Source of the DNA: Ignavibacteria bacterium
GTDB lineage: Bacteria > Bacteroidota > Ignavibacteria > Tepidaquicellales > OLB5
Assembly (NCBI GenBank): GCA_030835085.1
Contig: JAUQWQ010000183.1
Coordinates: 1 to 56,427, forward strand
Direction: 5' to 3'
Length of the DNA: 56,427 nt
Below are positions 12,990 through 26,211 of this stretch, one piece after another. A model generated the notes under the pieces. That model saw only the letters and a program-made list of their open reading frames with translations, was not told the origin of the DNA and ran no database searches. Both the position numbers and the translations under genes were made by a program. Position 1 is the first letter of the stretch; every line of letters starts with the position of its first letter.

Positions 12990-14228
12990 ATGACGAATAA
13001 AAATACATCACTTTTAAAAGCAGCTTTAATATTTGCTGTACTTTTTATATTTCAGTTTACATATTCACAAAAGATACCGCAGGAAAAAATTGATGAGCTT
13101 CAAGGCAGGCTAGATTCAATTTGCCTGCCTCTTAAAAATGCGGGAATAAAAGTCTCGTGCAAGGTTGTACATGCAGATTTTAACAAGTTAATGTATGAAC
13201 TTGACCCTGAAATAGGAATGATACCTGCATCTATTACCAAAATTGTTGTAGGCGTAACGGCTTATGCAAAACTTGGGGCAAATTACCAGATACCCACAAT
13301 TATTTATACAGATGATAATAACATAAAGGACGGCTCGATTGACGGGAATCTGTACATTAAAGGTTACGGGGACCCTGATCTGAATTCAGGCGATATACAA
13401 ACACTGGCGGATGAGATAAATAAAGCCGGAATAAAACAGATAACAGGCAACATAGTAGCCGATGATTCATATTTTGATAATGTATATAAAACCCTCTCAG
13501 GTGTGTATAAAGGTGATACCGGACCCAGCTACTGGCCGTATGTTTCAGGGCTATGCCTTGATAAGACCTACGGGGCTATGAGTACAGGTAACCTGCTTTC
13601 AAGCGATCTTACATCACTTGGAATAAGCGTACAGGGTACAGTCATTGCAGGCACAACCCCCGGCGGTGCAAAGGAAATAGTTCAGATAAGCCATTCAATT
13701 TACGATGTATTATCGTATATGCTGAAGGAAAGTGATAATCACTCCGCAATTACTATTTTCAAGCTTTTAGGGGCAAAATATAAAAAACAGCCTGCTTCGC
13801 TTGAAGATGCCCAGGAAGTTATAAATTCATTTTTAACCGAGCTTGGTGTAGACAGGTATTCATATGAAATTCTGGAAGGCTCAGGGTTAACCCGTTTTAA
13901 TAAAGTTAACGCAGAAATGTATATTAAGATGCTTAAGTACATGTATGATGACAGGTTCCTGTTCGATTATTTTATGAATTCACTTTCAATTGCGGGTAAA
14001 GATGGCACGCTTAGGAACAGGATGATTGGTACTGAAGCAGAAGGCAATGTCTATGCGAAAACGGGAACAATTAACAGCGTAAGTGCGCTTTCGGGTTACG
14101 TAATAGATAAAGACAGTGAAGTGCTGATGTTTTATATAGTGATGAACGGTTTTGGCGGAAATGCATCAGAAATGCGCGCGGCCCAGGATGATATATGCAT
14201 TACACTGGCCGGATTTTCGAGGAAGTAA
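12990..14228 (+). CDS. dacB: D-alanyl-D-alanine carboxypeptidase/endopeptidase (PBP4 type)
   Basis: Periplasmic penicillin-binding protein of the S13/PBP4 class, acting on peptidoglycan stem peptides and cross-bridges. A signal peptide ends near TYSQK. All three serine-acylase motifs are present: SxxK as SITK (about residue 81), SxN as SDN, and KTG in AKTGTINS. About 412 residues is slightly shorter than E. coli DacB. I chose the ATG at 12990; a TTG two codons earlier is also possible. It lies between mazG and uvrB in the same direction. Confidence 0.94.
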   Translation: MTNKNTSLLKAALIFAVLFIFQFTYSQKIPQEKIDELQGRLDSICLPLKNAGIKVSCKVVHADFNKLMYELDPEIGMIPASITKIVVGVTAYAKLGANYQIPTIIYTDDNNIKDGSIDGNLYIKGYGDPDLNSGDIQTLADEINKAGIKQITGNIVADDSYFDNVYKTLSGVYKGDTGPSYWPYVSGLCLDKTYGAMSTGNLLSSDLTSLGISVQGTVIAGTTPGGAKEIVQISHSIYDVLSYMLKESDNHSAITIFKLLGAKYKKQPASLEDAQEVINSFLTELGVDRYSYEILEGSGLTRFNKVNAEMYIKMLKYMYDDRFLFDYFMNSLSIAGKDGTLRNRMIGTEAEGNVYAKTGTINSVSALSGYVIDKDSEVLMFYIVMNGFGGNASEMRAAQDDICITLAGFSRK

Positions 14229-14263
14229 ATTTTAAATAACCCTTCTTAACTGAAAGATACAAA

Positions 14264-16294
14264 TTGGCAAAATTTCATTTAGAATCAGAATACAAACCAT
14301 CAGGTGACCAGCCAAAAGCAATTAATGAGCTTACCGAAGGCGTAACCAGGGGTGATAAGTACCAGACACTGCTTGGGGTCACAGGTTCAGGTAAAACATA
14401 TACAATTTCCAATGTTATAAAGAACATCGGGAAACCTACGCTCATAATGTCACATAATAAAACCCTTGCGGCTCAGCTTTACGGTGAATTCAAAAAGTTC
14501 TTCCCAAAAAATAAGGTTGAGTTTTTCATCAGTTATTATGATTATTATCAGCCGGAATCATACATTCCTTCATCAGATACATACATAGCAAAGGATCTTG
14601 CCATCAATGATGAAATTGACAGGCTCAGACTGCGCGCAACCACTGCCCTGCTTGAAGGCAGAGAAGACGTGATCATCATTGCATCGGTTTCATGTATTTA
14701 CGGAATTGGCGCACCTCAGGAGTACGCTGACCAGGTGCTAGTGTTAAACCGCGGAGAAAAAATAGCACGCAAGGAACTGCTGAATAAGCTTATTGATATA
14801 CATTACGTAAGGAATGATTTTGAATTCAAGCGCGGGGCATTTCGTGTGCGCGGCGATGTTATTGATATCATACCGGCATATGAAGATGATACTGCAATTA
14901 GAATTGAGCTGTTTGATGATGAAATTGAAGGCATAATGTATTTTGATAAGACTTCAGGGGAAATTATCGGCACAGATGAAAAAGCTGCAATATACCCCGC
15001 AAAGTATTTTGTCACATCACCTGAAAGACAGGAAAAGGCAATACTTGATATCCGCAGGGAACTGAATTCCAGAATAGCTGAACTTCAGAACGAAGGCAAG
15101 CTTGTTGAAGCTCAAAGGCTTGAGCAAAGAACGAACTTTGACCTTGAAATGATACAGGAAGTTGGTTACTGCACGGGTATTGAAAATTATTCCCGTTACA
15201 TGGCTCAAAGAGAACCTGGCTCCAGACCTTCATGCCTGTTTGATTATTTTCCCAAAGATTATCTTCTGATAGTAGATGAATCACATGTTACAGTTCCCCA
15301 GGTAAACGGAATGTACCAGGGTGACAGAGTAAGAAAACAAACACTGATAGATTACGGTTTCAGGCTGCCTTCGGCACTGGATAACCGCCCGATGAAGTTT
15401 GCTGAATGGGAATCAATGCAGAACCAGGTAATATATGTTAGCGCAACACCTTCTGAATACGAGCTTAAAAAGAGCGGCGGCGTTTATGTTGAGCAGATAA
15501 TCCGCCCTACCGGGCTTCTTGACCCGGCAATAGAAGTAAGGCCTACAAAAACTCAGATAGATGACCTGATACACGAGATCCGTGAGCGCGCAAAGAAGAA
15601 TGAGAGAGTGCTTGTCACAACCCTGACAAAACGCATGAGCGAAGATCTAACTGATTATTTGATAGGAATAGGCATTAAGGTGAGGTATATGCATTCGGAA
15701 ATTGACGCACTTGACAGGGTTGATATACTTCGCGACCTCAGGTTAGGCAATTTTGATGTGCTTGTTGGAGTTAACCTGCTGCGCGAGGGACTTGACCTGC
15801 CTGAAGTATCGCTGGTAGCGATAATTGATGCCGATAAGGAAGGGTTCCTGCGAAGCGAGAAATCGTTAATGCAAACAGCAGGCAGAACAGCAAGAAATGT
15901 GAACGGACTGGTAATATTATATGCTGATAAGGTTACCAATTCAATGGATAAGGTTATCAAAGAGACTGCCAGAAGAAGAAAGATACAGGAAGATTATAAT
16001 AAAAAACATAATATCAATCCAAAGACTGTATTAAAAACCCTTGAAGAAATTATGAGCTCAACTGTAATTGCTGATTCAAAGGGCAGGAATGAACAGCGAA
16101 AGAATAAAGCTAAGAAGGACCAGCATAAAACGAGTCTTTCGATACTTACAGATCCTGCACTGGAGCGCAATAACCCCGCTGAACGCCGCGACCTTATAAA
16201 CCAGCTTCGCAAGCAGATGGTAGAAGCTGCCAAGGATCTTGAGTTTGAACGCGCTGCTGAATTAAGGGATGAAATAAACAGGCTTGATAGCTAG
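14264..16294 (+). CDS. uvrB: excinuclease ABC subunit UvrB
   Basis: DNA-damage verification helicase of nucleotide excision repair, working with UvrA and UvrC. The 676 residues are full length. Visible features are the Walker A GVTGSGKT near 39-46, the damage-probing beta-hairpin with [21 protein letters not shown], the helicase motif [10 protein letters not shown], and the C-terminal UVR domain (LINQLRKQM to EINRLDS) that binds UvrC. The TTG start aligns exactly with the usual N-terminus before [14 protein letters not shown]. The last 11 bases overlap the start of the downstream glycosyltransferase. Confidence 0.98.
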
Positions 16295-17507
16295 GTCATC
16301 TGAAAATATTTTCGTTTTAACTACAGCCCTGGCAGCACTGATAATAAGAATATCAGCGATTTTCTTATTTGTTGATCTAAATAACCCCCAAATGTGGGAG
16401 TTTGGGATGATCGCAAGAAACCTGCTTAATGGTGAAGGGTTCACATTCCTTGCATTAACTCACAATGTGCCATCAGCCTTTATGCCACCGGGTTTACCGT
16501 TTATATATTACTTTATATTCAGTATTTTCGGCGATAATTCCGCAGGTTACGTTGTTATACTTTTTATCAATGCAGTATTAAGCGCAATTACTGCAGTAAT
16601 TTCTTATTATTATGCCAAAAGACTATTCAATAAGAGCACCGCGGTTTTTACAATAATTTATATTACATTTTCTCCTATACTCATATACTCTTCAATAAGT
16701 TTTAATTCAATAATTATATACCAGTTCCTGCTGTTGTTGGTATTTCTGCTGCTTGATAAAATTATATATACAGGATCCGGAAGCAAGATCATAAAAAATG
16801 ATGTTTTTAAATATGTGATATATATATCTTTTGTGCTCGGGTTATTTTTATATTTCAGGGCTGAATCAGTTTTTTTTATATTAGCCATTTCGGCATTGTT
16901 TATGTTCAAAAAGAAGTTCTCGTATGCATTTCTTGTAGTGCTTTTTTCCGTATTAATTATATCTCCCTGGACTATAAGAAATTTTAATACGTTCGGTAAA
17001 TTCATACCGGTAACTTCAAGTTTTGGCTATAATTTCTATTTCGGACATGGAGATGATGCTTCAACACTGGTTTATAAAGAAAAATTAGCAATGATAAATG
17101 AGGATGTTAATTTCGAGATCAATCAATCACAAATGGCTCTTGATCTTGCAGTTAAGTATATTACTTCACATCCAATAGCTGAAGTACGGGAATCCGTTAA
17201 GAAAGTATATTCCTTATGGATCATAGATGCTTACCGGGATAGTGCTAAAGAGCCTGTTTATCTATTTGTATGGATACCGACTTTGTTGTTTTTTTTAACC
17301 GGTACATATTTTATATTCAGGCAAAAATCCAAATTGAAACAGTTAAGCCCGGTATATTTTTATTTAATATTCTCAACATTATTGACAGTAGTATTCTTTA
17401 ACATACCCAGATATCAGATCCAAATGTCAATTATTATGCTGCCAATAGCCATGTACGGCTTAACAGAATTAATCAGTAAATATAAATCCAAAACTATCAG
17501 AAAATGA
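16284..17507 (+). CDS. membrane glycosyltransferase, GT39/ArnT-like
   Basis: A 407-residue protein with about ten membrane helices. The N-terminal pattern resembles GT-C enzymes of the GT39/ArnT/PMT type: a first helix, then an exposed loop with acidic residues ([16 protein letters not shown]), then [14 protein letters not shown], the usual first loop and second helix. Such enzymes move sugars from polyprenyl phosphate to lipid A, protein or cell-surface polymers at the periplasmic face. Acceptor unknown. The TTG start overlaps uvrB, and the 3' end overlaps the DUF192 gene by four bases (ATGA). The gene is visibly more AT-rich than uvrB. Confidence 0.8.
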
Positions 17508-18004
17508 AACTCAAAATATTCTTAATTTTAATTGCTGCAGTGATTATAAACTCCTGCCAAAAACAGCCCGATGATATTAAAGTAGATACAGTTAATAACA
17601 AAGATGCTTCAAAGATACAATTCAAGAAACAGGGCGAAGTATACTTTCAGGACTCAGCTAAAAAACTGCTTAAGAAAATTGACGTAGAAATTGCCGAAAC
17701 TGAAGAGACCCGTCATTTAGGACTGATGTTCAGGGAAAACATGCAGGAAGATCAGGGAATGCTGTTTTTATTCCCTAATGAAGAATACCAGAGTTTCTAT
17801 ATGAAAAATACTTTAATTCCACTGGATATAATGTTCATAAATTCAAAAAAGCAAATTGTTAAAATACACCGCAACGCTGTTCCGTATTCGGAAAAAAGCC
17901 TTCCTTCGATGAATCCTTCAATATATGTAGTAGAAGTTAACGGAGGGTTTTCAGATAGGAATAATATTAAAGAAGGTATGTTTGTAGACTGGCGCAGGAA
18001 TTAA
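17504..18004 (+). CDS. DUF192 family lipoprotein
   Basis: A 166-residue protein with a lipobox ending INSC (cysteine at residue 18) and a DUF192 domain from about residue 45 to the end. The family signature is clear: GLMFRENMQEDQGMLF, FYMKNTLIPLDIMF, and the terminal VVEVNGGFSDRN. DUF192 proteins are small envelope proteins of unknown biochemical role, often lone or near membrane transport genes. The ATG overlaps the preceding glycosyltransferase by four bases, so the two are coupled. It converges on the nitrilase gene with only 12 bases between. Confidence 0.9.
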   Translation: MKLKIFLILIAAVIINSCQKQPDDIKVDTVNNKDASKIQFKKQGEVYFQDSAKKLLKKIDVEIAETEETRHLGLMFRENMQEDQGMLFLFPNEEYQSFYMKNTLIPLDIMFINSKKQIVKIHRNAVPYSEKSLPSMNPSIYVVEVNGGFSDRNNIKEGMFVDWRRN

Positions 18005-18016
18005 CAGTTCTGCGGA

Positions 18017-18823
18017 TTACCTGTAAAACTCAGTTCTTCTGTCTTCAAAAATGTTGTTTTTAGATGTTACATTTTTATCCAATGCATCTTCCGGATCGAT
18101 CTCAGCGGTCAAAATGCACTCATTATCTTCTCCTGCGGTACAAAGGTAGTTACCTTTGGTATCCACTATAACACTTTTACCCGTAAAATAAAGCTCTTTA
18201 TCTCCATTAATTTCGGTTCCTGTTCTGTTAGCGGTAACTGTGAAAACGCGGTTTTCAACCGCACGTGTAAACATCGCCTGCTGGCAATAACTGAGCACCA
18301 GGTTTGAAGGATGTGCTATAATCTGTGCGCCTTTTAATGCCAGCGTTCTTGCTGATTCAGGAAATATCCAGTCGAAGCATATCATCATACCGACCTTTAC
18401 TTTCCCGAAATTTCCTGAAATTTCAAAAACATTAAGCCCTGTATCACCTGCTGTGAACCAAATTTTTTCATCGAAGAAAAGATGGGTTTTACGGTATGTT
18501 TCAGTTTCCCCGTTTGGAGAAACCATGACAGCGGAATTATAAAGTCTATCCCCAGCTTTTTCGCAAATACCTGATATTATATAAGAATTTTTTTCTTTTG
18601 AAATTTCAGAAAGGGCACGGCAAAACTTTCCGCCGGGTATTATTTCTGAAGCTGAAATAGCTTCATCACGGGAGGAAAATAAATAGCCCGAGTTTGCAAG
18701 CTCGGGCAATACTAAAAGATCGTGATCTGTTTTACAGTTTAAGATAATTTCCCTGATCTTATCAATATTTTCATCAGGTTTACAAAGTACAGGCTTAAAC
18801 TGTAAAAAACCTATTTTCATCAT
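18017..18823 (-). CDS. carbon-nitrogen hydrolase (nitrilase superfamily)
   Basis: A cytoplasmic amidase-type enzyme of about 268 residues with the catalytic triad of the superfamily: Glu in LPELANSGYLF, Lys in YRKTHLF, and Cys in MMICFDWIFPES. The spacing and the FDWIFPE context fit omega-amidase/N-carbamoyl-type branches, but the substrate cannot be assigned. A TTG seven codons upstream would lengthen the frame and overlap the previous gene; the ATG at 18823 (MMKIGFLQF) starts exactly at the conserved first strand and leaves one base after the DUF1573 stop. It is the last gene of the DUF1573-rhodanese-MauE run. Confidence 0.9.
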   Translation of the reverse strand: MMKIGFLQFKPVLCKPDENIDKIREIILNCKTDHDLLVLPELANSGYLFSSRDEAISASEIIPGGKFCRALSEISKEKNSYIISGICEKAGDRLYNSAVMVSPNGETETYRKTHLFFDEKIWFTAGDTGLNVFEISGNFGKVKVGMMICFDWIFPESARTLALKGAQIIAHPSNLVLSYCQQAMFTRAVENRVFTVTANRTGTEINGDKELYFTGKSVIVDTKGNYLCTAGEDNECILTAEIDPEDALDKNVTSKNNIFEDRRTEFYR

Positions 18824-18824
18824 A

Positions 18825-19265
18825 TTATTTTGCCGGCGGCACAATAATATTTGCGCTGAAAGATACTACTTTTGTAGGCTGAACCGGGTGGTTAGTTTCT
18901 ATTGTGATCGTTTTTTCGTTCACACCGCTTCTGCCTTCAGTATTAAATGTAAATTTGATCTTTCCTGTTTCACCCGGCTGATATTCTTTCTTTTCATCCG
19001 CTACAACTCCGGTGCAGCCGCATGCCGGCTGGATCTTTTTGATCACAAGTACACTTTGCCCGGTATTGGTAAATTCAAACTCACCATTAACCTGCGGACC
19101 CTGAGGAACATCACCAAAGTTAATTTTTTCTTCTTTAAAAGATATTACCGGCGGATGTGTTTTGGGGTCATGCAAATTCTTGTTTACAAGAAATGCTGAA
19201 AACGCACCTACAAGCAATACTCCAAAGACCAAAAATAAGATCTTCCCTGTTTTTCCTGTGTTCAT
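18825..19265 (-). CDS. DUF1573 protein, membrane-anchored
   Basis: A 146-residue protein with one N-terminal membrane helix (about 8-26) and a single DUF1573 immunoglobulin-like domain (about 40-140). Family hallmarks are INFGDVPQGPQVNGEFEFTN, the cysteine motif PACGCTG (Cys82, Cys84), and GETGKIKFTFNTEGRSG. DUF1573 domains occur widely in Bacteroidota envelopes and their role is not settled. It is the second DUF1573 protein of this operon, 3 bases after the MauE-like gene, and its CGC motif is echoed in that neighbour. Confidence 0.92.
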   Translation of the reverse strand: MNTGKTGKILFLVFGVLLVGAFSAFLVNKNLHDPKTHPPVISFKEEKINFGDVPQGPQVNGEFEFTNTGQSVLVIKKIQPACGCTGVVADEKKEYQPGETGKIKFTFNTEGRSGVNEKTITIETNHPVQPTKVVSFSANIIVPPAK

Positions 19266-19268
19266 AGT

Positions 19269-19754
19269 TTAATTTGTTTGATTTATAAAATATTTATTTT
19301 CAATTTCTTTTTCGTTTGATACATTTATTTCATCTTTTGAATATTTATATAACATAAAGCTGAAAAACAACAGTATGATATCTTCAATTATTCTCAGCCA
19401 AACCTCTGAAGTAGTTGAAGGATTAACACTGAAGCATCCGCATGATATATCAAGTCCGCGAATAAGCGCTTGAGAGAGCGCAATAATAAAAACAACAAGC
19501 AATACATTATAAATAAGCAGCGAAGCTTTCACCCATTTGCCTGTGATTAAAAAGAGTCCTGTGATAAATTCCAGCCACGGCAGAAAAATTGCAAGTGCGT
19601 TTACAAGCTGGTACGGAAGCAAATGGTAATTATCAACAATATTGGCAAATGCTTCTGGGTTAGCCATCTTATCAAAACTTGCATACATAAACACAGCACC
19701 AAGTACAGTCCTTGCAGCAATTACGATATATTTATTTTCGAATAATTTTTTCAT
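19269..19754 (-). CDS. MauE/DoxX family redox-associated membrane protein
   Basis: A 161-residue membrane protein with four helices typical of the DoxX/MauE fold: VLGAVFMYASFDKMANP at the start, then helices near 45-70, 77-97 and 118-138. A conserved-looking pair of cysteines sits in SCGCFS (Cys105, Cys107) just after the third helix, presumably at the periplasmic face. MauE-type proteins are linked to disulfide formation and quinone-coupled redox chemistry. Here it lies between a rhodanese gene (6 bases) and a DUF1573 gene (3 bases), which supports a thiol-related role. Confidence 0.88.
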   Translation of the reverse strand: MKKLFENKYIVIAARTVLGAVFMYASFDKMANPEAFANIVDNYHLLPYQLVNALAIFLPWLEFITGLFLITGKWVKASLLIYNVLLVVFIIALSQALIRGLDISCGCFSVNPSTTSEVWLRIIEDIILLFFSFMLYKYSKDEINVSNEKEIENKYFINQTN

Positions 19755-19760
19755 GATCTC

Positions 19761-20456
19761 TTAATTTGCCGGAAACCCTGCTGCTTTCCATTCATCCCAT
19801 CCGCCATGGAAAACATATACTTTTTTGAATCCAAGTTTTGCCATGTAATATGCCAGATCAATACTGACATCACAGGCGGAAGAGCAGTATGTTACATAAA
19901 CCTGGTCTTTGGGCAGATCATTTAATCTATCTTTATATTTTTCAATTTCATGGAACGGTATATTCATTGCGCCCTGAATGTGACCTGCTCCGAAATCTGA
20001 AAGATCCCTTGCATCAATGAACCGGTATTTTTTATCGAACAATGCTTTTGCAAAATCGATCTTTATATCAATGGGTTTTACAAAATCCTGTACCTGGTTC
20101 TGAGCATTTTTAATTGAATCTTCTTTTTTCTGATTTATAGTTTTTAATGAATCGTGTATCCGTTTTAAAGAATCTGTTTTATTTGCAGCTAAAATTGAGT
20201 CCTGGATATGTTTATCCATTGCAAGCTTTAAAGAATCTTCACGTTTATTGGAAGAATTCATAAGTGAATCTGCTGCCTTTAATATTGAATCCTGTATCCT
20301 GAGTGCATTAAGCAGGCTATCGCTTTGAGAAAAATTCACAATTTTCTCATTTGCAATAAACTGTATTCTGTTGGGATTGGATAAATTAAAAAAAATACCC
20401 GTCAGTAATGTAATAACTAAAATTCCCGTAATCTGCAATAAGGCTTTTTTGTTCAA
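19761..20456 (-). CDS. membrane-anchored rhodanese-domain protein
   Basis: A 231-residue protein with an N-terminal membrane anchor (about 7-25), a long helical stalk (about 40-125) and a C-terminal rhodanese domain (about 130-231). The active-site loop contains Cys191 in YCSSACD, with a second cysteine at 195. FHGGWDEWKAAGFP is the standard rhodanese ending. The stalk has DSL/DSI repeated about every 7-11 residues (near 46, 56, 63, 74, 86, 95, 102, 113), suggesting a charged coiled coil that spaces the domain from the membrane. TTG start. Probably a periplasmic sulfur-transfer or thiol-handling protein working with its neighbours. Confidence 0.9.
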   Translation of the reverse strand: MNKKALLQITGILVITLLTGIFFNLSNPNRIQFIANEKIVNFSQSDSLLNALRIQDSILKAADSLMNSSNKREDSLKLAMDKHIQDSILAANKTDSLKRIHDSLKTINQKKEDSIKNAQNQVQDFVKPIDIKIDFAKALFDKKYRFIDARDLSDFGAGHIQGAMNIPFHEIEKYKDRLNDLPKDQVYVTYCSSACDVSIDLAYYMAKLGFKKVYVFHGGWDEWKAAGFPAN

Positions 20457-20479
20457 TATATAAAAATCAGTTTAAATTA

Positions 20480-21154
20480 TTAATTATTTTTTACATCAAC
20501 CAACACGGGGATCTGGAATTCACCTTCAGTGGTCTTGATTATAATTGCGGCGTTAATTGCGGACTCTTCATAAATTTTTATTGATATTTCCAGGTTAGCT
20601 GAGTCACCTCCCATTAATATCATTTTATCGGAAGTAATTTTTATTACCGGCGTATTCGAAGTAATTTCGGTAATATCAATTTCTTTATCCATTGTATTAA
20701 GAATAGAAGCCTTTTGGGTAAGTTCATCACCCACTTTTCCTTCTGTAATTATAGATCCGGGATTTAAAGTAACAGGATCAACCATATTCATAGTCATCTG
20801 AACATTTTTGGTTGAGCTTCCGTTTTCGTTAGAACTTATCATTACAACTTTAGTTACAGAACCCATTCCCTGACCGTTAAAGGTAAATTTAATAGTACCG
20901 GTTTCGCCCGGTTTTACAGCATCACTTCCGGCTAGTGCACTGGAGCATCCGCATGAAGTCTGCACTCCTGTTATTACAAGGTCCTGGTCTCCAACGTTTT
21001 TAAAAGTAATATCATAGGTAAGCTCCTGCCCTCTTTTGTGATTACCTGTATTAATATTATCACCGCCAACAATTTCAATTTTAGGACCGGATTGAGCCAA
21101 CAGAATTGCAGGGAAAAATAATAAAGCTATAAATAATTTTTTCATTTTTAGCAT
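20480..21154 (-). CDS. DUF1573 protein, secreted
   Basis: A 224-residue protein with a signal peptide ending at LLAQSG. A first DUF1573 domain (about 25-125) has GDQDLVITGVQ, the cysteine motif SCGCSSA (Cys68, Cys70) and PGETGTIKFTFNGQG. A second beta-rich half (about 128-224) lacks cysteines and may be a degenerate copy. It is the first gene of the operon and reads away from bshB1 across a 173-base AT-rich gap. The role is unknown; the neighbours point to periplasmic redox or sulfur handling. Confidence 0.9.
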   Translation of the reverse strand: MLKMKKLFIALLFFPAILLAQSGPKIEIVGGDNINTGNHKRGQELTYDITFKNVGDQDLVITGVQTSCGCSSALAGSDAVKPGETGTIKFTFNGQGMGSVTKVVMISSNENGSSTKNVQMTMNMVDPVTLNPGSIITEGKVGDELTQKASILNTMDKEIDITEITSNTPVIKITSDKMILMGGDSANLEISIKIYEESAINAAIIIKTTEGEFQIPVLVDVKNN

Positions 21155-21327
21155 TTTTTTAATTGATTTAGCAATTTAATATTACTTTTAGATAAAAACA
21201 ATTTATCTATTTTACTACATGTTAACCAAAAATACCTCTAAAACGTTTCAAATTAAAGCACTATTTTTATTATATATTAACCTTTTAGATAATATTTATA
21301 TTTATTAAATTAGTACGGGGGTTTATA

Positions 21328-22062
21328 TTGAAGTTCAAAAAAGAACTGGATGTAATAGTTTTTGCCGCACATCCGGATGATGCTGAATTATGCTGCGGCG
21401 GAACTATAGCTGCATTGGTAAATGCAGGTAAAAAAACCGGAATTATTGATCTGACCCGGGGTGAGCTTGGTACCCGGGGGTCAGTAAAACAAAGGAATCT
21501 TGAAGCCCGTAACGCTTCGGTAATACTTGGTATTGATACGAGGGAAAATCTCGGAATTCGTGACGGTAATATCGTAAACAACCCTGCTAACAGGCTCAAA
21601 ATTATCAAGGTTATTCGGAAATACAGGCCAAAGGTCATATTTTACCCGCATTATTACGATAGACACCCAGACCATTATAATACTCATTATTTAATTAAAG
21701 AAGCTGCGTTTTATTCAGGACTGGAAAAAATTAAAACTCCCGGTCTGAAGGCATACCGTGCTAAACGGAATATTTATTATATGCAGACGTATTCATTTGA
21801 GCCTAATATTATTTTTGATATTTCTGATACATTTAAAACAAAAATGGAAGCAGTAAAATGCTTTTCTACACAGTTCTTTTCCGGGAGCCCCGGATCAAAA
21901 AAAGGAACAGAAACATTTATAAGCTCAAAAGCATTCATGGATTACATTGAAGCAAGATCAAAATTTTATGGTTTCCGGATAGGTGCTGCATATGGCGAAG
22001 CATACTATGCTGAAGAAAATATAAAAATTAACAGTGACACTTTATTTAAGATAACCGGCTAA
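21328..22062 (+). CDS. bshB1: bacillithiol biosynthesis deacetylase BshB1
   Basis: Zinc-dependent deacetylase of the PIG-L/LmbE family that converts GlcNAc-malate to GlcN-malate, the second step of bacillithiol synthesis. The 244 residues show the zinc motif AHPDDAE (His15, Asp17, Asp18), RGELGTRG, RENLGIRDG and HPDHYNTH (113-120) carrying the third ligand. FSTQFFSGSPGSK and YGEAYYAEE near the end are typical of BshB1. bshA and bshC are not in the window. TTG start. Its stop is directly followed by the ATG of the CHASE3-PAS gene, and it diverges from the thiol-handling cluster, a sensible pairing. Confidence 0.92.
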   Translation: MKFKKELDVIVFAAHPDDAELCCGGTIAALVNAGKKTGIIDLTRGELGTRGSVKQRNLEARNASVILGIDTRENLGIRDGNIVNNPANRLKIIKVIRKYRPKVIFYPHYYDRHPDHYNTHYLIKEAAFYSGLEKIKTPGLKAYRAKRNIYYMQTYSFEPNIIFDISDTFKTKMEAVKCFSTQFFSGSPGSKKGTETFISSKAFMDYIEARSKFYGFRIGAAYGEAYYAEENIKINSDTLFKITG

Positions 22063-23205
22063 ATGAACAAATCAATTTTAAATAAACAGTCTTTAACCCT
22101 TTTATTCATTTTAGGTACCGTAGTATTGATATCAGTATCTTTCTTAACATATCTGAATATTCAGGATCAAAACAATGATCATGATTTTATTACAGAAACT
22201 TTTCAGCGGACTGCGTTTATGGATAATATATATTCCGTTGTAAATGAATCTGAAACAGCCCGCCGCGGTTACTTCCTTACAAATGATAAGCAATTTATGA
22301 CAGATATCGGGAATAATAAGATCTTAGCGGATTCACTGCTTAAACAGCTTCGCTCAAATTCACTTGATAATGCAAACCAGCTGGCAAACGCCGAAGCGCT
22401 GAAGCCTCTTGTTAACGAAAGGTTCCAGTTGTTTTTTGACGGGATGGAAGTACAGGATCAAAAAGGTACAAACATGAAATTCCATAAAAATATCTTCGAT
22501 AAAGGAAAGATCATAAATATAGATATTAAGAATCTTCTTGGCAGAATGAAGAAAGAAGAGTATAAAAACCTTGACAGGAAAAAGGAGCTTACAGAAAGCA
22601 GTTCACAGTTTACTTATTATACATTTCTAGCGGGAATTGGCGCAAGCCTGATTATCTTTGTAATAGCATTTGTTTCTCTGTTAAAAAAAGCTTCACATAC
22701 TTTTGCCCTGGAAAACCAGGAAATTACCCGGGAAGAACTCGAACAGATAGTGAAAGAACGTACTGCTGAGATATCCCAGATAAACCAGAAGCTCTATTCA
22801 AAAGTAAACGAGCTTGAGAAAATGGAAGGAAATCTAAAAAGCGCAGCGGAACAATACCGCAGGCTTTTTGAACAGGCTCATGATGCAATTGTTATTTTTT
22901 CACCCGAAGATGAAAAAGTCATTGAAGTGAACAGAAGAGCCTGCGATCTCTACGGCTTCAGCCGTGAGGAGTTCATTGGCTTATCACTCAGAAGTATTTG
23001 GAAGAATATTCCGCAGGATGAAGATAATATCAAACATACTGTTGAAAAAGGTTATTATCATAACTTCCAAAGCGTACACAACAGGAAAGATATGAATGAA
23101 ATGCTGATGGAGATAAATGCATCGGTTTTTAACTACCGCGGCAGAAATGTTATTTTATCCATCAACCGTGATATTACTGACAGGATTTTAAAAGTTCCTG
23201 TTTAG
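22063..23205 (+). CDS. CHASE3-PAS membrane sensor protein lacking an output domain
   Basis: A 380-residue protein with membrane helices at about 11-31 and 184-207. Between them is a periplasmic CHASE3-type helical bundle with the recognisable NESETARRGYFLT. A long coiled coil (about 215-262) leads to one PAS domain (about 264-375: RRLFEQAHDAIVIFSP to INRDITDR). The protein ends five residues after the PAS domain; no histidine kinase, GGDEF, EAL or response domain follows in any frame, and the next gene starts 120 bases on. It may pass signals by protein contact or be a truncated kinase. Confidence 0.88.
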   Translation: MNKSILNKQSLTLLFILGTVVLISVSFLTYLNIQDQNNDHDFITETFQRTAFMDNIYSVVNESETARRGYFLTNDKQFMTDIGNNKILADSLLKQLRSNSLDNANQLANAEALKPLVNERFQLFFDGMEVQDQKGTNMKFHKNIFDKGKIINIDIKNLLGRMKKEEYKNLDRKKELTESSSQFTYYTFLAGIGASLIIFVIAFVSLLKKASHTFALENQEITREELEQIVKERTAEISQINQKLYSKVNELEKMEGNLKSAAEQYRRLFEQAHDAIVIFSPEDEKVIEVNRRACDLYGFSREEFIGLSLRSIWKNIPQDEDNIKHTVEKGYYHNFQSVHNRKDMNEMLMEINASVFNYRGRNVILSINRDITDRILKVPV

Positions 23206-23282
23206 TTATGGGCATACAACTGTATTCAGAAGAATACTGATTCAACAAAATTACTTACATTTTTACTTACCCTTTAGATACT

Positions 23283-23290
23283 TATATTTG
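23283..23290 (+). promoter_or_regulatory. TAnnTTTG promoter element upstream of the YbaB gene
   Basis: TATATTTG lies 38 bases before the ATG of the YbaB/EbfC gene, in the 123-base gap after the CHASE3-PAS gene. It matches the Bacteroidota -7 element. A Shine-Dalgarno-like CGGAG (about 23316-23320) lies between it and the ATG. Confidence 0.5.
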
Positions 23291-23328
23291 CCAATATATA
23301 GTGTAAAATTAAACACGGAGTAAATTCA

Positions 23329-23664
23329 ATGAAGCTTAACCCAATGTCGGGAATGCTTAAGCAGGTCCAGAAGATGCAGGAAAAGATGCAGGAGGTTCAA
23401 AATGAGCTTGAAAACAAATTTGTAACCGAAGAATCCGGCGGAGGAATGGTTAAAGTTACAGCAAACGGAAAACTGCAGGTAACAAAAATACAGATAGAAA
23501 AAGAAGTTATCTCACCGGATGACCCTGAAATGCTTGAGGACCTTATTGTTGCAGCGGTAAATAAAACAATAGATTCTGCCCAGAAAATGGCTCAGGAAGA
23601 GATGCAGAAGGCTACATCAGGGTTAATTCCCAACATCCCCGGCTTAAACCTGCCCGGAATGTAA
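23329..23664 (+). CDS. YbaB/EbfC family nucleoid-associated protein
   Basis: A 111-residue DNA-binding protein of the YbaB/EbfC family, usually encoded just before recR as here (29 bases). The N-terminal helix [16 protein letters not shown], the [12 protein letters not shown] strand and the [16 protein letters not shown] helix are typical. The C-terminal tail is Pro/Gly/Met-rich. It forms dimers that bind DNA and may link to recombinational repair. dnaX, its common upstream partner, is absent here. Confidence 0.95.
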
Positions 23665-23693
23665 TATATAAAATATAACCTGAACCATAATTA

Positions 23694-24287
23694 ATGCAGA
23701 CATCTGAAACACTTGAAAAGGTAGCTGAAGAACTGGCTAAACTGCCCAGTATCGGCAGGAAAACAGCAAACAGGATAGCAATGTATCTCGCAAAATCACC
23801 CGCAGAAGAAGTAGTGAACCTTTCTGACGCACTTCTGCAGCTTAAAGATAAAATACGGCTTTGCAGTGTTTGCTGTAATATTACCGAATCCGAAATATGT
23901 TCAATTTGTGACTCAGCAAAAAGATCATCGGCTTCAATATGCATAGTAGAAGAACCCGGCGATGTATTTGCTATAGAAAAGACCAATGAATTTAAAGGTA
24001 AATACCACGTGCTTCATGGTATTATTTCTCCGCTTGACGGCATTGGACCTGAAGATATTAAAGTAAAGGAACTGTTGATGAGATTAAGCGGTGATGTGGA
24101 AGAAGTGATCCTGGCACTTAATCCCAGTGTAGAAGGTGAGTATACTATAACTTATTTAAGCAAGCTGATAAAACCGCTGAATATAAAAATTTCAAGGATA
24201 GCAAGGGGTATTCCCGTTGGAACTGACCTTGAATATGCTGATGAGATAACGATAGCCAAAGCTATTGAAGGAAGAATCACACTTTAA
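23694..24287 (+). CDS. recR: recombination mediator protein RecR
   Basis: Works with RecF and RecO to load RecA at gapped DNA. The 197 residues show, in order, the helix-hairpin-helix LPSIGRKTANRIAMYL, the zinc finger with CSVCC...CSIC (about 62-76), the Toprim domain starting ICIVEEPGDVFAIE, and the Walker B-like C-terminal part (ISRIARGIPVGTDLEYAD). Full length. It follows the YbaB gene and precedes a methyltransferase by 4 bases. Confidence 0.97.
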   Translation: MQTSETLEKVAEELAKLPSIGRKTANRIAMYLAKSPAEEVVNLSDALLQLKDKIRLCSVCCNITESEICSICDSAKRSSASICIVEEPGDVFAIEKTNEFKGKYHVLHGIISPLDGIGPEDIKVKELLMRLSGDVEEVILALNPSVEGEYTITYLSKLIKPLNIKISRIARGIPVGTDLEYADEITIAKAIEGRITL

Positions 24288-24291
24288 AGTA

Positions 24292-25071
24292 ATGGCAGAA
24301 AAAAATAAAGACTGGTACAAAAAATGGTTTGGGACCCAAGAATATCTTGAGCTGTATAAACACAGGAACAGTAAAGATGCCTCGAAAATATCAGGACTTA
24401 TAACGCGAACCCTGAAACTGCCTAAAGGCGCGAAAGTGCTGGATGTTGCCTGCGGTAACGGAAGACACAGCCTTATTTTAGCATCAAAAGGATATGATGT
24501 GCTTGGAATAGATCTATCCGCTTACCTGATAAACGAAGCAAATAAAAAGCTGCGGACTGAATACAAAAAACAGAAAGATCACCTGCGGTTTGAAATAAGG
24601 GATATGCGTGATTTAGACCATAAAAATGAATTTGATCTGGCTGTAAATTTATTCAGCAGCTTTGGTTATTTTGAAAAAGACAGTGAGAATTTTAAGGTTT
24701 TTAAAAGCATAAGCAGCGCATTAAAACCCGGGGGTTTCTTTTTCTTCGATTTTCTTAATGAATCACTCCTTAGAAAAAATATCGTTCCTTTCGATATATC
24801 GGAACGAAACCATAATGCAGTTGTACAGGTTAGGAAGATAAAGAATAATGCAGTATACAAAACCATTTATATTATCCGTAATAACCCAACAGGGGCAGCT
24901 CCATCGGTTAACGAGTATAATGAAATGGTAAAACTTTATTCACTGGAAGATTTCAGGAAAAGCTTCAGGAAAAACGGACTGAAGGTAATAAAAACATTTG
25001 GAGATTATTCAGGAAATAATTTTAACAGGCATTCATCTGAAAGACTGATAATTTTGGCACAAAAAAAATAA
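24292..25071 (+). CDS. class I SAM-dependent methyltransferase
   Basis: About 259 residues with the Rossmann-like methyltransferase fold. Motif I is VLDVACGNGRHSL, followed by GIDLS (acidic end of beta2) and FDLAVNLFSSFGYF. FFFDFLNE lies in motif III position. The pattern resembles small-molecule methyltransferases of the Methyltransf_25/11 type; the substrate is unknown. An upstream TTG at 24265 would overlap recR, so I prefer the ATG at 24292. The stop is directly followed by the ATG of a lipoprotein gene. Confidence 0.88.
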   Translation: MAEKNKDWYKKWFGTQEYLELYKHRNSKDASKISGLITRTLKLPKGAKVLDVACGNGRHSLILASKGYDVLGIDLSAYLINEANKKLRTEYKKQKDHLRFEIRDMRDLDHKNEFDLAVNLFSSFGYFEKDSENFKVFKSISSALKPGGFFFFDFLNESLLRKNIVPFDISERNHNAVVQVRKIKNNAVYKTIYIIRNNPTGAAPSVNEYNEMVKLYSLEDFRKSFRKNGLKVIKTFGDYSGNNFNRHSSERLIILAQKK

Positions 25072-25680
25072 ATGCTTAAAACCCGTCCGGTTAATGACCG
25101 AAAATTAAGATATTCTTTTTCATTTATTATTCTGTTAATTTTTTACCAGGGATGCGGAATATTTGATACCCGTGACCCGCAGGACCCCGAGACAATAAGA
25201 TCAACTTACTTCCCTCCTACTTCAGCTGATCTTGTAATTGATAATCTGAGTTACTCCATACAGGAAAAAAATTCAAATAATTACAACAGGTGTATTTCTT
25301 CGGAAAATTATCAATATATACCTGACTCACGCTCACAACAGCAGTATGTTGAAATATTTAACAGCTGGAATATACAGTCTGAAAAGCATTACCTTGATAA
25401 CCTGATCTCAAGGCAGGAAGGCGGCAATTCTTCAGCTGTACTTTTTCTTGATAATGAAAGGCTGACACAGCTTTCAAGTGACTCAGCACGTTACCAGGCC
25501 GATTATATTTTTGTGTTCCAGCATAACCAGGCAAACGTACCTAAATCGTCAAAAGGCAGGATAAGCCTGATACTTGCCACCGATAGTGATGAATTATTCT
25601 ATATAAGGAAATGGGAAGACTTCAGGCAGAATGATACTGATTTCACATGGAGTGAATTTAAAGCTAACTTCAGTAATTAA
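25072..25680 (+). CDS. lipoprotein of unknown function (NTF2-like pattern)
   Basis: A 202-residue protein with a hydrophobic leader and lipobox FYQGC (cysteine 28). The mature part opens with TRDPQDPETI and a Pro-rich linker, then shows an NTF2/SnoaL-like order: helix pair (VIDNLSYSIQEKNSNNYNRC), F/Y-containing strands, and a final strand with YIRKWEDFR. The next gene encodes a lipoprotein with the same ending style (WKIRSWKDM), suggesting an old duplication. Function unknown. It abuts the methyltransferase gene and is 9 bases from its presumed paralogue. Confidence 0.65.
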   Translation: MLKTRPVNDRKLRYSFSFIILLIFYQGCGIFDTRDPQDPETIRSTYFPPTSADLVIDNLSYSIQEKNSNNYNRCISSENYQYIPDSRSQQQYVEIFNSWNIQSEKHYLDNLISRQEGGNSSAVLFLDNERLTQLSSDSARYQADYIFVFQHNQANVPKSSKGRISLILATDSDELFYIRKWEDFRQNDTDFTWSEFKANFSN

Positions 25681-25689
25681 TTTATAATT

Positions 25690-26211
25690 TTGAATAGACC
25701 GGTAAAAATACTGAATATTTTTTTAATGATACTGGCAGCAGTAGTTTTGATAAGCTGTTTTAATCCATTTTCACCCGGTATAGATAACAGCACATCAACA
25801 GAAAATATCATTGCTGACCAGAAAACCATTGAAGGTGTTTTCCAGAATTTTAAATACGCTTATACCTTTAAAGATACAAGTATTTACGGGCAAACCCTGG
25901 CTCCTGATTTCGTTTTTTCTTATTTCGATTATGACCTGGGTGTTGATGTTTCATGGGATAGAGCTACTGATATGAGGACAACTGAAGGATTATTTATCAA
26001 TACACAGGACCTGCGACTGATATGGAATAATATTGTATTTCAGGAAGGTGATTCATTACTTGTAGATGTAAAACGCGGTTTCAACCTGACAATCACTTTT
26101 AACCCGAATGATGTAATAAATTTTTACGGCTTTGTTGATATGAAGCTCGCAAGAGCATCTGTTGAAGAAAAATGGAAGATTAGGTCATGGAAAGATATGA
26201 CCAATCCCTGA
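25690..26211 (+). CDS. lipoprotein of unknown function, presumed paralogue of the preceding gene
   Basis: A 173-residue protein with a lipobox ending LISC (cysteine 23) followed by FNPFSPG. The mature part shows IEGVFQNFKYAYTFKDTSIYGQ, then APDFVFSYFDYD, and a closing WKIRSWKDMT, consistent with a small alpha+beta NTF2-like fold. The same helix-then-W(K/E)D pattern appears in the gene before it. TTG start. Converges on the minus-strand ORF at 26229 with 17 bases between. Function unknown. Confidence 0.65.
   Translation: MNRPVKILNIFLMILAAVVLISCFNPFSPGIDNSTSTENIIADQKTIEGVFQNFKYAYTFKDTSIYGQTLAPDFVFSYFDYDLGVDVSWDRATDMRTTEGLFINTQDLRLIWNNIVFQEGDSLLVDVKRGFNLTITFNPNDVINFYGFVDMKLARASVEEKWKIRSWKDMTNP

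Follow-up and report, generated by a model that had tools for sequence, protein, structure and literature searches.

A conserved rhodanese-MauE cassette with optional DUF1573 partners as a candidate periplasmic dithiol-disulfide relay in Ignavibacteria

The 56,427-nucleotide contig JAUQWQ010000183.1 of an Ignavibacteria bacterium (assembly GCA_030835085.1; 4.05 Mb in 234 contigs), referred to here as the window, carries on its minus strand a compact run of four genes for cysteine-bearing envelope proteins. From position 21154 down to 18825, they encode a first DUF1573 protein (DUF1573-A), a membrane-anchored rhodanese, a membrane protein of the MauE/DoxX type and a second DUF1573 protein (DUF1573-B), separated by intergenic gaps of 23, 6 and 3 bases. 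This cassette is real, conserved and modular: its core is a rhodanese followed by MauE, and DUF1573 is an optional partner. The families are known, and their combination was not found described in the open-access library searched, where a query for DUF1573 together with MauE returned no paper. Judging from the sequences, we propose with middling confidence that the cassette specifies a dithiol-disulfide relay of the periplasm. The relay would probably be oxidative, with MauE as the membrane oxidoreductase.

The four proteins contain eight cysteines in total, all in close pairs, two per protein. DUF1573-A (20480..21154, 224 residues) has a signal-peptide-like start and an immunoglobulin (Ig)-like DUF1573 domain (PF07610, 81.0 bits against a cut-off of 26.1), and its sole cysteines, C68 and C70, lie in the stretch TSCGCSS. 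DUF1573-B (18825..19265, 146 residues) consists of one N-terminal transmembrane helix followed by the same domain (88.2 bits, cut-off 26.1), with C82 and C84 in PACGCTG. MauE (19269..19754, 161 residues; PF07291, 98.9 bits against 27; DoxX profile PF07681, 32 bits) has four transmembrane-like helices and carries C105 and C107 in SCGCFS at the end of the third. In the rhodanese (19761..20456, 231 residues; PF00581, 65.5 bits against 22.2), a membrane helix at about residues 5-23 precedes a C-terminal rhodanese domain with C191 and C195 in YCSSACDVS. Cys-Gly-Cys (CGC) tripeptides are expected about 0.08 times in the roughly 54 open reading frames of the window, and three are observed, all inside the cluster; the shared motif is thus beyond chance. 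When each window protein is aligned with its nine close relatives, both cysteines of every pair are invariant in 10 of 10 rows. Two further DUF1573 matches in the genome, one of them under the cut-off, are without CGC over the part that matches, and the PDB relative 2qsv has none at the aligned place in an alignment that is itself weak (E 0.062). The original prediction, made from the DNA letters of the window, had described the two DUF1573 proteins and the MauE/DoxX protein with CGC motifs, the rhodanese with Cys195, the gaps of 3-23 bases and a bshB1 gene 173 bases away, and the open reading frames and profile matches confirm this description throughout.

The arrangement is conserved among close relatives. 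A search with DUF1573-A gave ten loci, nine of them from close relatives, and the nearest named relatives of the genome are labelled Ignavibacteria or Chlorobi/Chlorobiota. At all eight close loci that retain both flanks, the order bshB1, DUF1573-A, rhodanese, MauE, DUF1573-B, nitrilase-family gene, DUF192 gene is unchanged. The ninth (L012) begins within DUF1573-A and keeps the remaining order; the tenth (L014, 25% identity) matches in DUF1573 only. Scattered genes and variable CGC cysteines, the outcome that would have counted against the prediction, did not occur.

The rhodanese-MauE core recurs across the class that contains the Ignavibacteria. MauE is matched in 88 of 100 class genomes, and we surveyed the best MauE locus from each of 78 genomes. 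Not included were the window genome, 12 in which MauE was not matched and 9 in which the match was weak. CGC is present in MauE at 70 of these 78 loci. At 36 loci, a rhodanese is encoded in the same direction as MauE and no more than 1.6 kb from it, always upstream, and DUF1573 lies near MauE at 16, of which 15 also have the rhodanese; a rough density estimate that assumes 3.5 Mb genomes gives about 0.25 and 0.26 such loci by chance, respectively. The layout varies by family: DUF1573-rhodanese-MauE-DUF1573 in that of the window; rhodanese-MauE-DUF1573 in five of six genomes of a sister family, the sixth (G435) having DUF1573 about 4 kb away; and a two-domain DUF1573 followed by rhodanese and MauE in a third. 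The earlier suggestion of an envelope thiol or disulfide system therefore stands as regards conserved gene order and cysteine pairs, and it gains apparent selenocysteine variants in similar cassettes (described below); its composition is revised to the two-gene core, with DUF1573 optional. At two rhodanese-lacking loci (L193:3470-4423 and L207:3518-4417), MauE has an extra C-terminal domain unnamed by Pfam, which in L207 includes the stretch CEHC, as might be expected of a thioredoxin fold.

Similar cassettes are found in Thermodesulfobacteriota, where MauE is matched in 108 of 247 genomes. Among 30 of these MauE loci chosen by score, CGC is present in 30, an upstream rhodanese in 26 and a downstream DUF1573 in 3. 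The linked rhodaneses carry the two-cysteine motif in 35 of 36 cases in the class (all but the distant L179, which has no cysteine) and in 23 of 26 in Thermodesulfobacteriota. Taking all 62 together, the cysteine spacing is 4 in 49, 3 in 6 and 5 in 3, and the pair is missing in 4. For comparison, we analyzed 30 loci from 20 class genomes rich in rhodanese matches, which yielded 11 MauE-linked and 27 unlinked distinct domains. The pattern C-x2-5-C is present in all 11 linked domains and in none of the 27 unlinked ones, 20 of which have any cysteine. The second cysteine thus marks MauE-linked rhodaneses specifically: Cys195, which had been noted as an extra cysteine, is indeed there, and it is a signature of this group, not an incidental addition. 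In a tree of 108 MauE sequences over 131 columns, with bootstrap values not fully settled and some long branches, 79 sequences including all 62 rhodanese-linked ones are split from 29 with no linked rhodanese (support 99/98). The DUF1573 labels require at least four changes (downstream) and at least three (upstream) on well-supported branches of this tree, gains being indistinguishable from losses.

The rhodanese is the most constant MauE partner that we found, which speaks for a system that handles sulfane sulfur. Sulfide or polysulfide chemistry in the periplasm would then supply C191 with a sulfane sulfur, the second cysteine would release it as a disulfide, and MauE and DUF1573 would regenerate the rhodanese or receive the sulfur. 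The C-x3-5-C pair would suit persulfide release, and passages in PMC6930017 and PMC7907618 describe a DoxX protein working with the rhodanese SseA in Mycobacterium tuberculosis. We nevertheless consider this explanation unlikely. A weak argument against it is that the active loop, with its second cysteine, differs from the C-x-x-G-x-R-S type of loop seen in most of the other rhodaneses with a cysteine in these genomes.

The features of MauE suggest that its CGC faces outward. Hydropathy indicates four helices with the CGC after the third, and positive charges number 3 in the N-terminal segment, 2 in the second loop and 4 in the C-terminal segment versus 1 and 1 elsewhere, a bias that would place the CGC on the outer side of the membrane. 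The predicted structure of DUF1573-B (mean predicted local distance difference test score, pLDDT, 83.7) comprises a helix at residues 3-31 and an Ig-like domain resembling the HYDIN/ASH and PapD folds. The MauE model is weak (mean pLDDT 68, best PDB match E 0.21) and was used for helix layout only. Between its anchor and its domain, the window rhodanese has a repetitive linker of about 80 residues, rich in Asp, Ser and Leu/Ile, that is perhaps a long helix. A common motif behind the rhodanese anchor had been suspected by eye, and the written pattern matched just 17 of the 62 linked rhodaneses.

The direction of electron flow was considered in light of the disulfide enzymes encoded across the class. 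DsbB (PF02600) is matched in 0 of 100 class genomes, and the same profile matched 6 of 14 controls; VKOR (PF07884) is matched in 19 of 100. In contrast to these oxidising enzymes, the usual reducing route, DsbD/CcdA, occurs in 96 of 100, the window genome among them. Thus, in most class genomes the oxidising membrane step is without a known enzyme. The window genome has no DsbB or VKOR profile match, its MauE included. How most members of the class form envelope disulfides is the question that these counts raise, and the cassette is a concrete and testable candidate. The same anatomy would serve a reducing relay, in which electrons would travel outward from MauE, carried by the rhodanese and DUF1573, so that envelope thiols stay reduced, and many Thermodesulfobacteriota are anaerobes. 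Because DsbD/CcdA already supplies a reducing route and DsbB is absent, the oxidising direction is the likelier of the two, and we judge a reducing relay quite improbable. VKOR is also less frequent in genomes with CGC-type MauE (9 of 71) than in those without (10 of 29; p 0.022, uncorrected for relatedness), and the VKOR-rich families f37 (6 of 6) and f41 (4 of 5) are mostly without a full-length CGC-type MauE; these figures no more than hint at an inverse pattern.

Dithiol-disulfide exchange along a chain is consistent with the make-up of the cassette: four envelope proteins, each with a single cysteine pair, of which one is a membrane protein with four helices. In the oxidative relay that we favor, MauE, with its CGC at the outer face, would be the thiol oxidoreductase of the membrane and would do the work of DsbB or VKOR, presumably with quinone. 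The anchored rhodanese would be its dedicated partner, with C191 and C195 toggling between dithiol and disulfide, possibly via a persulfide. The DUF1573 proteins, Ig-like with one CGC each, may swap disulfides first with the rhodanese or MauE and afterwards with client proteins, on which they would act as oxidase or isomerase. The topology, the oxidising direction, the acceptor, the reacting partners and the clients are all predicted features of this scheme. Two statements in the literature, as cited by others, speak for it: a CGC disulfide has an E0' of -167 mV, near that of protein disulfide isomerase (PDI), and serves as a PDI mimic (Woycechowsky and Raines, 2003, as cited in PMC4316792), and disulfide formation has been raised as a speculative function of MauE (van der Palen et al., 1997, as cited in PMC7794033). 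If correct, the relay would point to what DUF1573 does, a family that has no name yet and counts selenoproteins among its members, and would explain the second cysteine in one kind of rhodanese.

Among known systems, the mycobacterial DoxX-rhodanese complex and the MauE/MauD pair come nearest to the cassette in their logic. DoxX-SseA-SodA, a membrane-associated oxidoreductase complex of M. tuberculosis (Nambi et al., 2015, as cited in PMC7907618 and PMC6930017), likewise joins a DoxX/MauE-type membrane protein with a rhodanese in thiol redox homeostasis. In contrast, the cassette has no superoxide dismutase gene at its locus; its rhodanese is single-domain, anchored and two-Cys, its MauE has a CGC pair, and DUF1573 partners are added. 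The MauE/MauD pair of the methylamine dehydrogenase cluster shares with the cassette a MauE family protein, a proposed disulfide role and the pairing with another maturation protein, as far as PMC7794033 describes it. A Pfam scan of seven genes at the window locus found no MauD-like or methylamine dehydrogenase gene, no superoxide dismutase and no metal gene; the rhodanese and DUF1573 proteins stand in the place of MauD. With DsbA-DsbB and VKOR, the cassette has in common the proposed task, in which a four-helix membrane oxidoreductase would act with a periplasmic two-Cys carrier, whereas its carrier would be a rhodanese and not a thioredoxin fold. A wider proposal, which we put forward tentatively as a possibility, is that the cassette is a thioredoxin-fold-free disulfide system, with MauE as oxidase, the two-Cys rhodanese as a DsbA-like carrier and, in the part of oxidases or isomerases, the DUF1573 CGC proteins, which in some bacteria apparently contain selenocysteine, and that it replaces DsbA/DsbB or VKOR in many members of the class and in Thermodesulfobacteriota.

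The selenocysteine variants come from Thermodesulfobacteriota. In three rhodanese-MauE operons (L083, L098 and L101, the last two with identical MauE domains), an in-frame TGA replaces the codon for the first cysteine of the DUF1573 CGC and is apparently read as selenocysteine. Read through the TGA, all three DUF1573 proteins exceed the cut-off of 100 for the OS_HP2 selenoprotein family (NF041425), and a retest gave 136.4 bits for L083 and 125.3 bits for L098. In these cassette operons, a hairpin is able to fold after the TGA. The OS_HP2 proteins have the same domain and motif position as the window DUF1573 proteins, which are Cys forms and score 65.9 and 52.9 bits, both below the family cut-off. 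Two reviews list DUF1573 selenoproteins with a UGC motif (PMC9312934, PMC13188914). Selenocysteine at this position would point to a reactive nucleophile at the first cysteine, though metal sites can use selenocysteine too. Of 30 DUF1573 loci of Thermodesulfobacteriota that were read, 25 have the TGA. A by-eye cross-check of MauE and DUF1573 positions found, among the matches listed, only the genomes of L083, L098 and L101 in common. Among the matches listed for MauE (247 genomes, 108 with a match), no TGA lies inside any match, and one row had TAG. No selenocysteine was seen in the 26 linked rhodaneses or, by eye, in about 12 rows of rhodaneses beside MauE. The selenocysteine rhodaneses of the LYCAU family (NF041203) were considered as part of the same system and rejected: none of 30 loci has MauE in flanks of up to 1.5 kb. 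The window rhodanese scores 52 bits with this profile, under the cut-off of 115, and its motif is C-x3-C, not CxU/CxC. Selenocysteine-type DUF1573 genes also stand beside a HAD-type phosphatase gene at L111, L113, L119 and L131, with a PriA-like gene in L113 and L119, these neighbors being named by eye.

Several observations weigh against the oxidative relay. VKOR is not significantly rarer in genomes with the cassette (4 of 36, the window genome counted) than in those without (15 of 64; Fisher p 0.19), and an inverse distribution of the two was therefore rejected. The 11 genomes of family f39 yielded no VKOR and no full-length CGC-type MauE, which means that they must have a different route or need none. 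DUF1573 adjoins MauE at no more than 16 of the 78 loci surveyed in the class, and 22 of the 25 selenocysteine-type DUF1573 loci are without MauE in their 1.5 kb flanks, leaving three with it. In L091, L099 and L105, the linked rhodanese has lost its catalytic cysteine while MauE retains the CGC. Rfam recognises no selenocysteine insertion sequence (SECIS) element in four selenocysteine-type loci, L083 and L098 included; recoding is thus supported only by the folded hairpin, the continued homology beyond the TGA and the published family. Finally, MauE occurs in fusions with metal-related domains. It is joined to the C-terminus of a cation-efflux protein of the zinc transporter type at three Thermodesulfobacteriota loci (L082:1441-2946, L084:316-1947 and L094:1471-2970), and a close relative of the window genome has, at L050:1498-2343, an HMA domain fused to MauE with a CACLG motif. 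The fusion gene of L084 is preceded by a gene for a two-Cys rhodanese.

These fusions somewhat favor metal handling, in which the CGC pairs would bind a soft metal (Cu, Zn or Hg) in the envelope and MauE would help to move or reduce it. Two cysteines one residue apart can bind Cu(I). PMC9312934 and PMC13188914 also list a putative mercuric transport protein that occurs as a selenoprotein. Set against this, the scan of seven genes at the window locus showed no metal gene, neither DUF1573 alignment has a His or Met cluster beside the CGC pair, and a rhodanese with two cysteines would be unusual as a metallochaperone. We regard metal handling as distinctly unlikely and retain the oxidative relay as the preferred interpretation.

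The genes surrounding the cassette appear to be bystanders. The divergent bshB1 gene (21328..22062, plus strand; TIGR04001, 262.1 bits against an equivalog cut-off of 182.5), whose start is 173 bases from that of DUF1573-A, is probably a mere neighbor. It adjoins the cassette in all eight close loci with that flank, and mycothiol homeostasis is reportedly maintained by the complex of mycobacteria; together these would favor a bacillithiol-linked oxidative-stress complex, a counterpart of the mycothiol-linked DoxX-SseA-SodA. Such a complex is very improbable, given that the seven scanned genes include no superoxide dismutase and that bshB1 was not found in flanks of up to 4 kb, some shortened by contig ends, of cassettes in the sister or other families. 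The suggested bacillithiol link is accordingly weak, holding for the close relatives, and a bacillithiol operon was rejected as the principal explanation. The nitrilase-family gene and the DUF192 gene were likewise not found in those flanks outside the window's family and for that reason were rejected as components. An Rfam scan of window positions 14000-26000 gave no match. The DUF192 gene (17504..18004, plus strand; PF02643, 111.4 bits) is convergent with the cassette. The carbon-nitrogen hydrolase gene of the nitrilase family (18017..18844, minus strand; PF00795, 155.7 bits) is the last of the run and probably a passenger; the span originally assigned to the thiol cluster, 18017-21154, correctly covers the thiol genes and also takes in this gene, which had not been named. 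Its open reading frame overlaps DUF1573-B by 20 bases. In five of nine relatives, the alignment begins only at residue 8-9, suggesting that the true start is probably just past DUF1573-B, at about 18820-18823.

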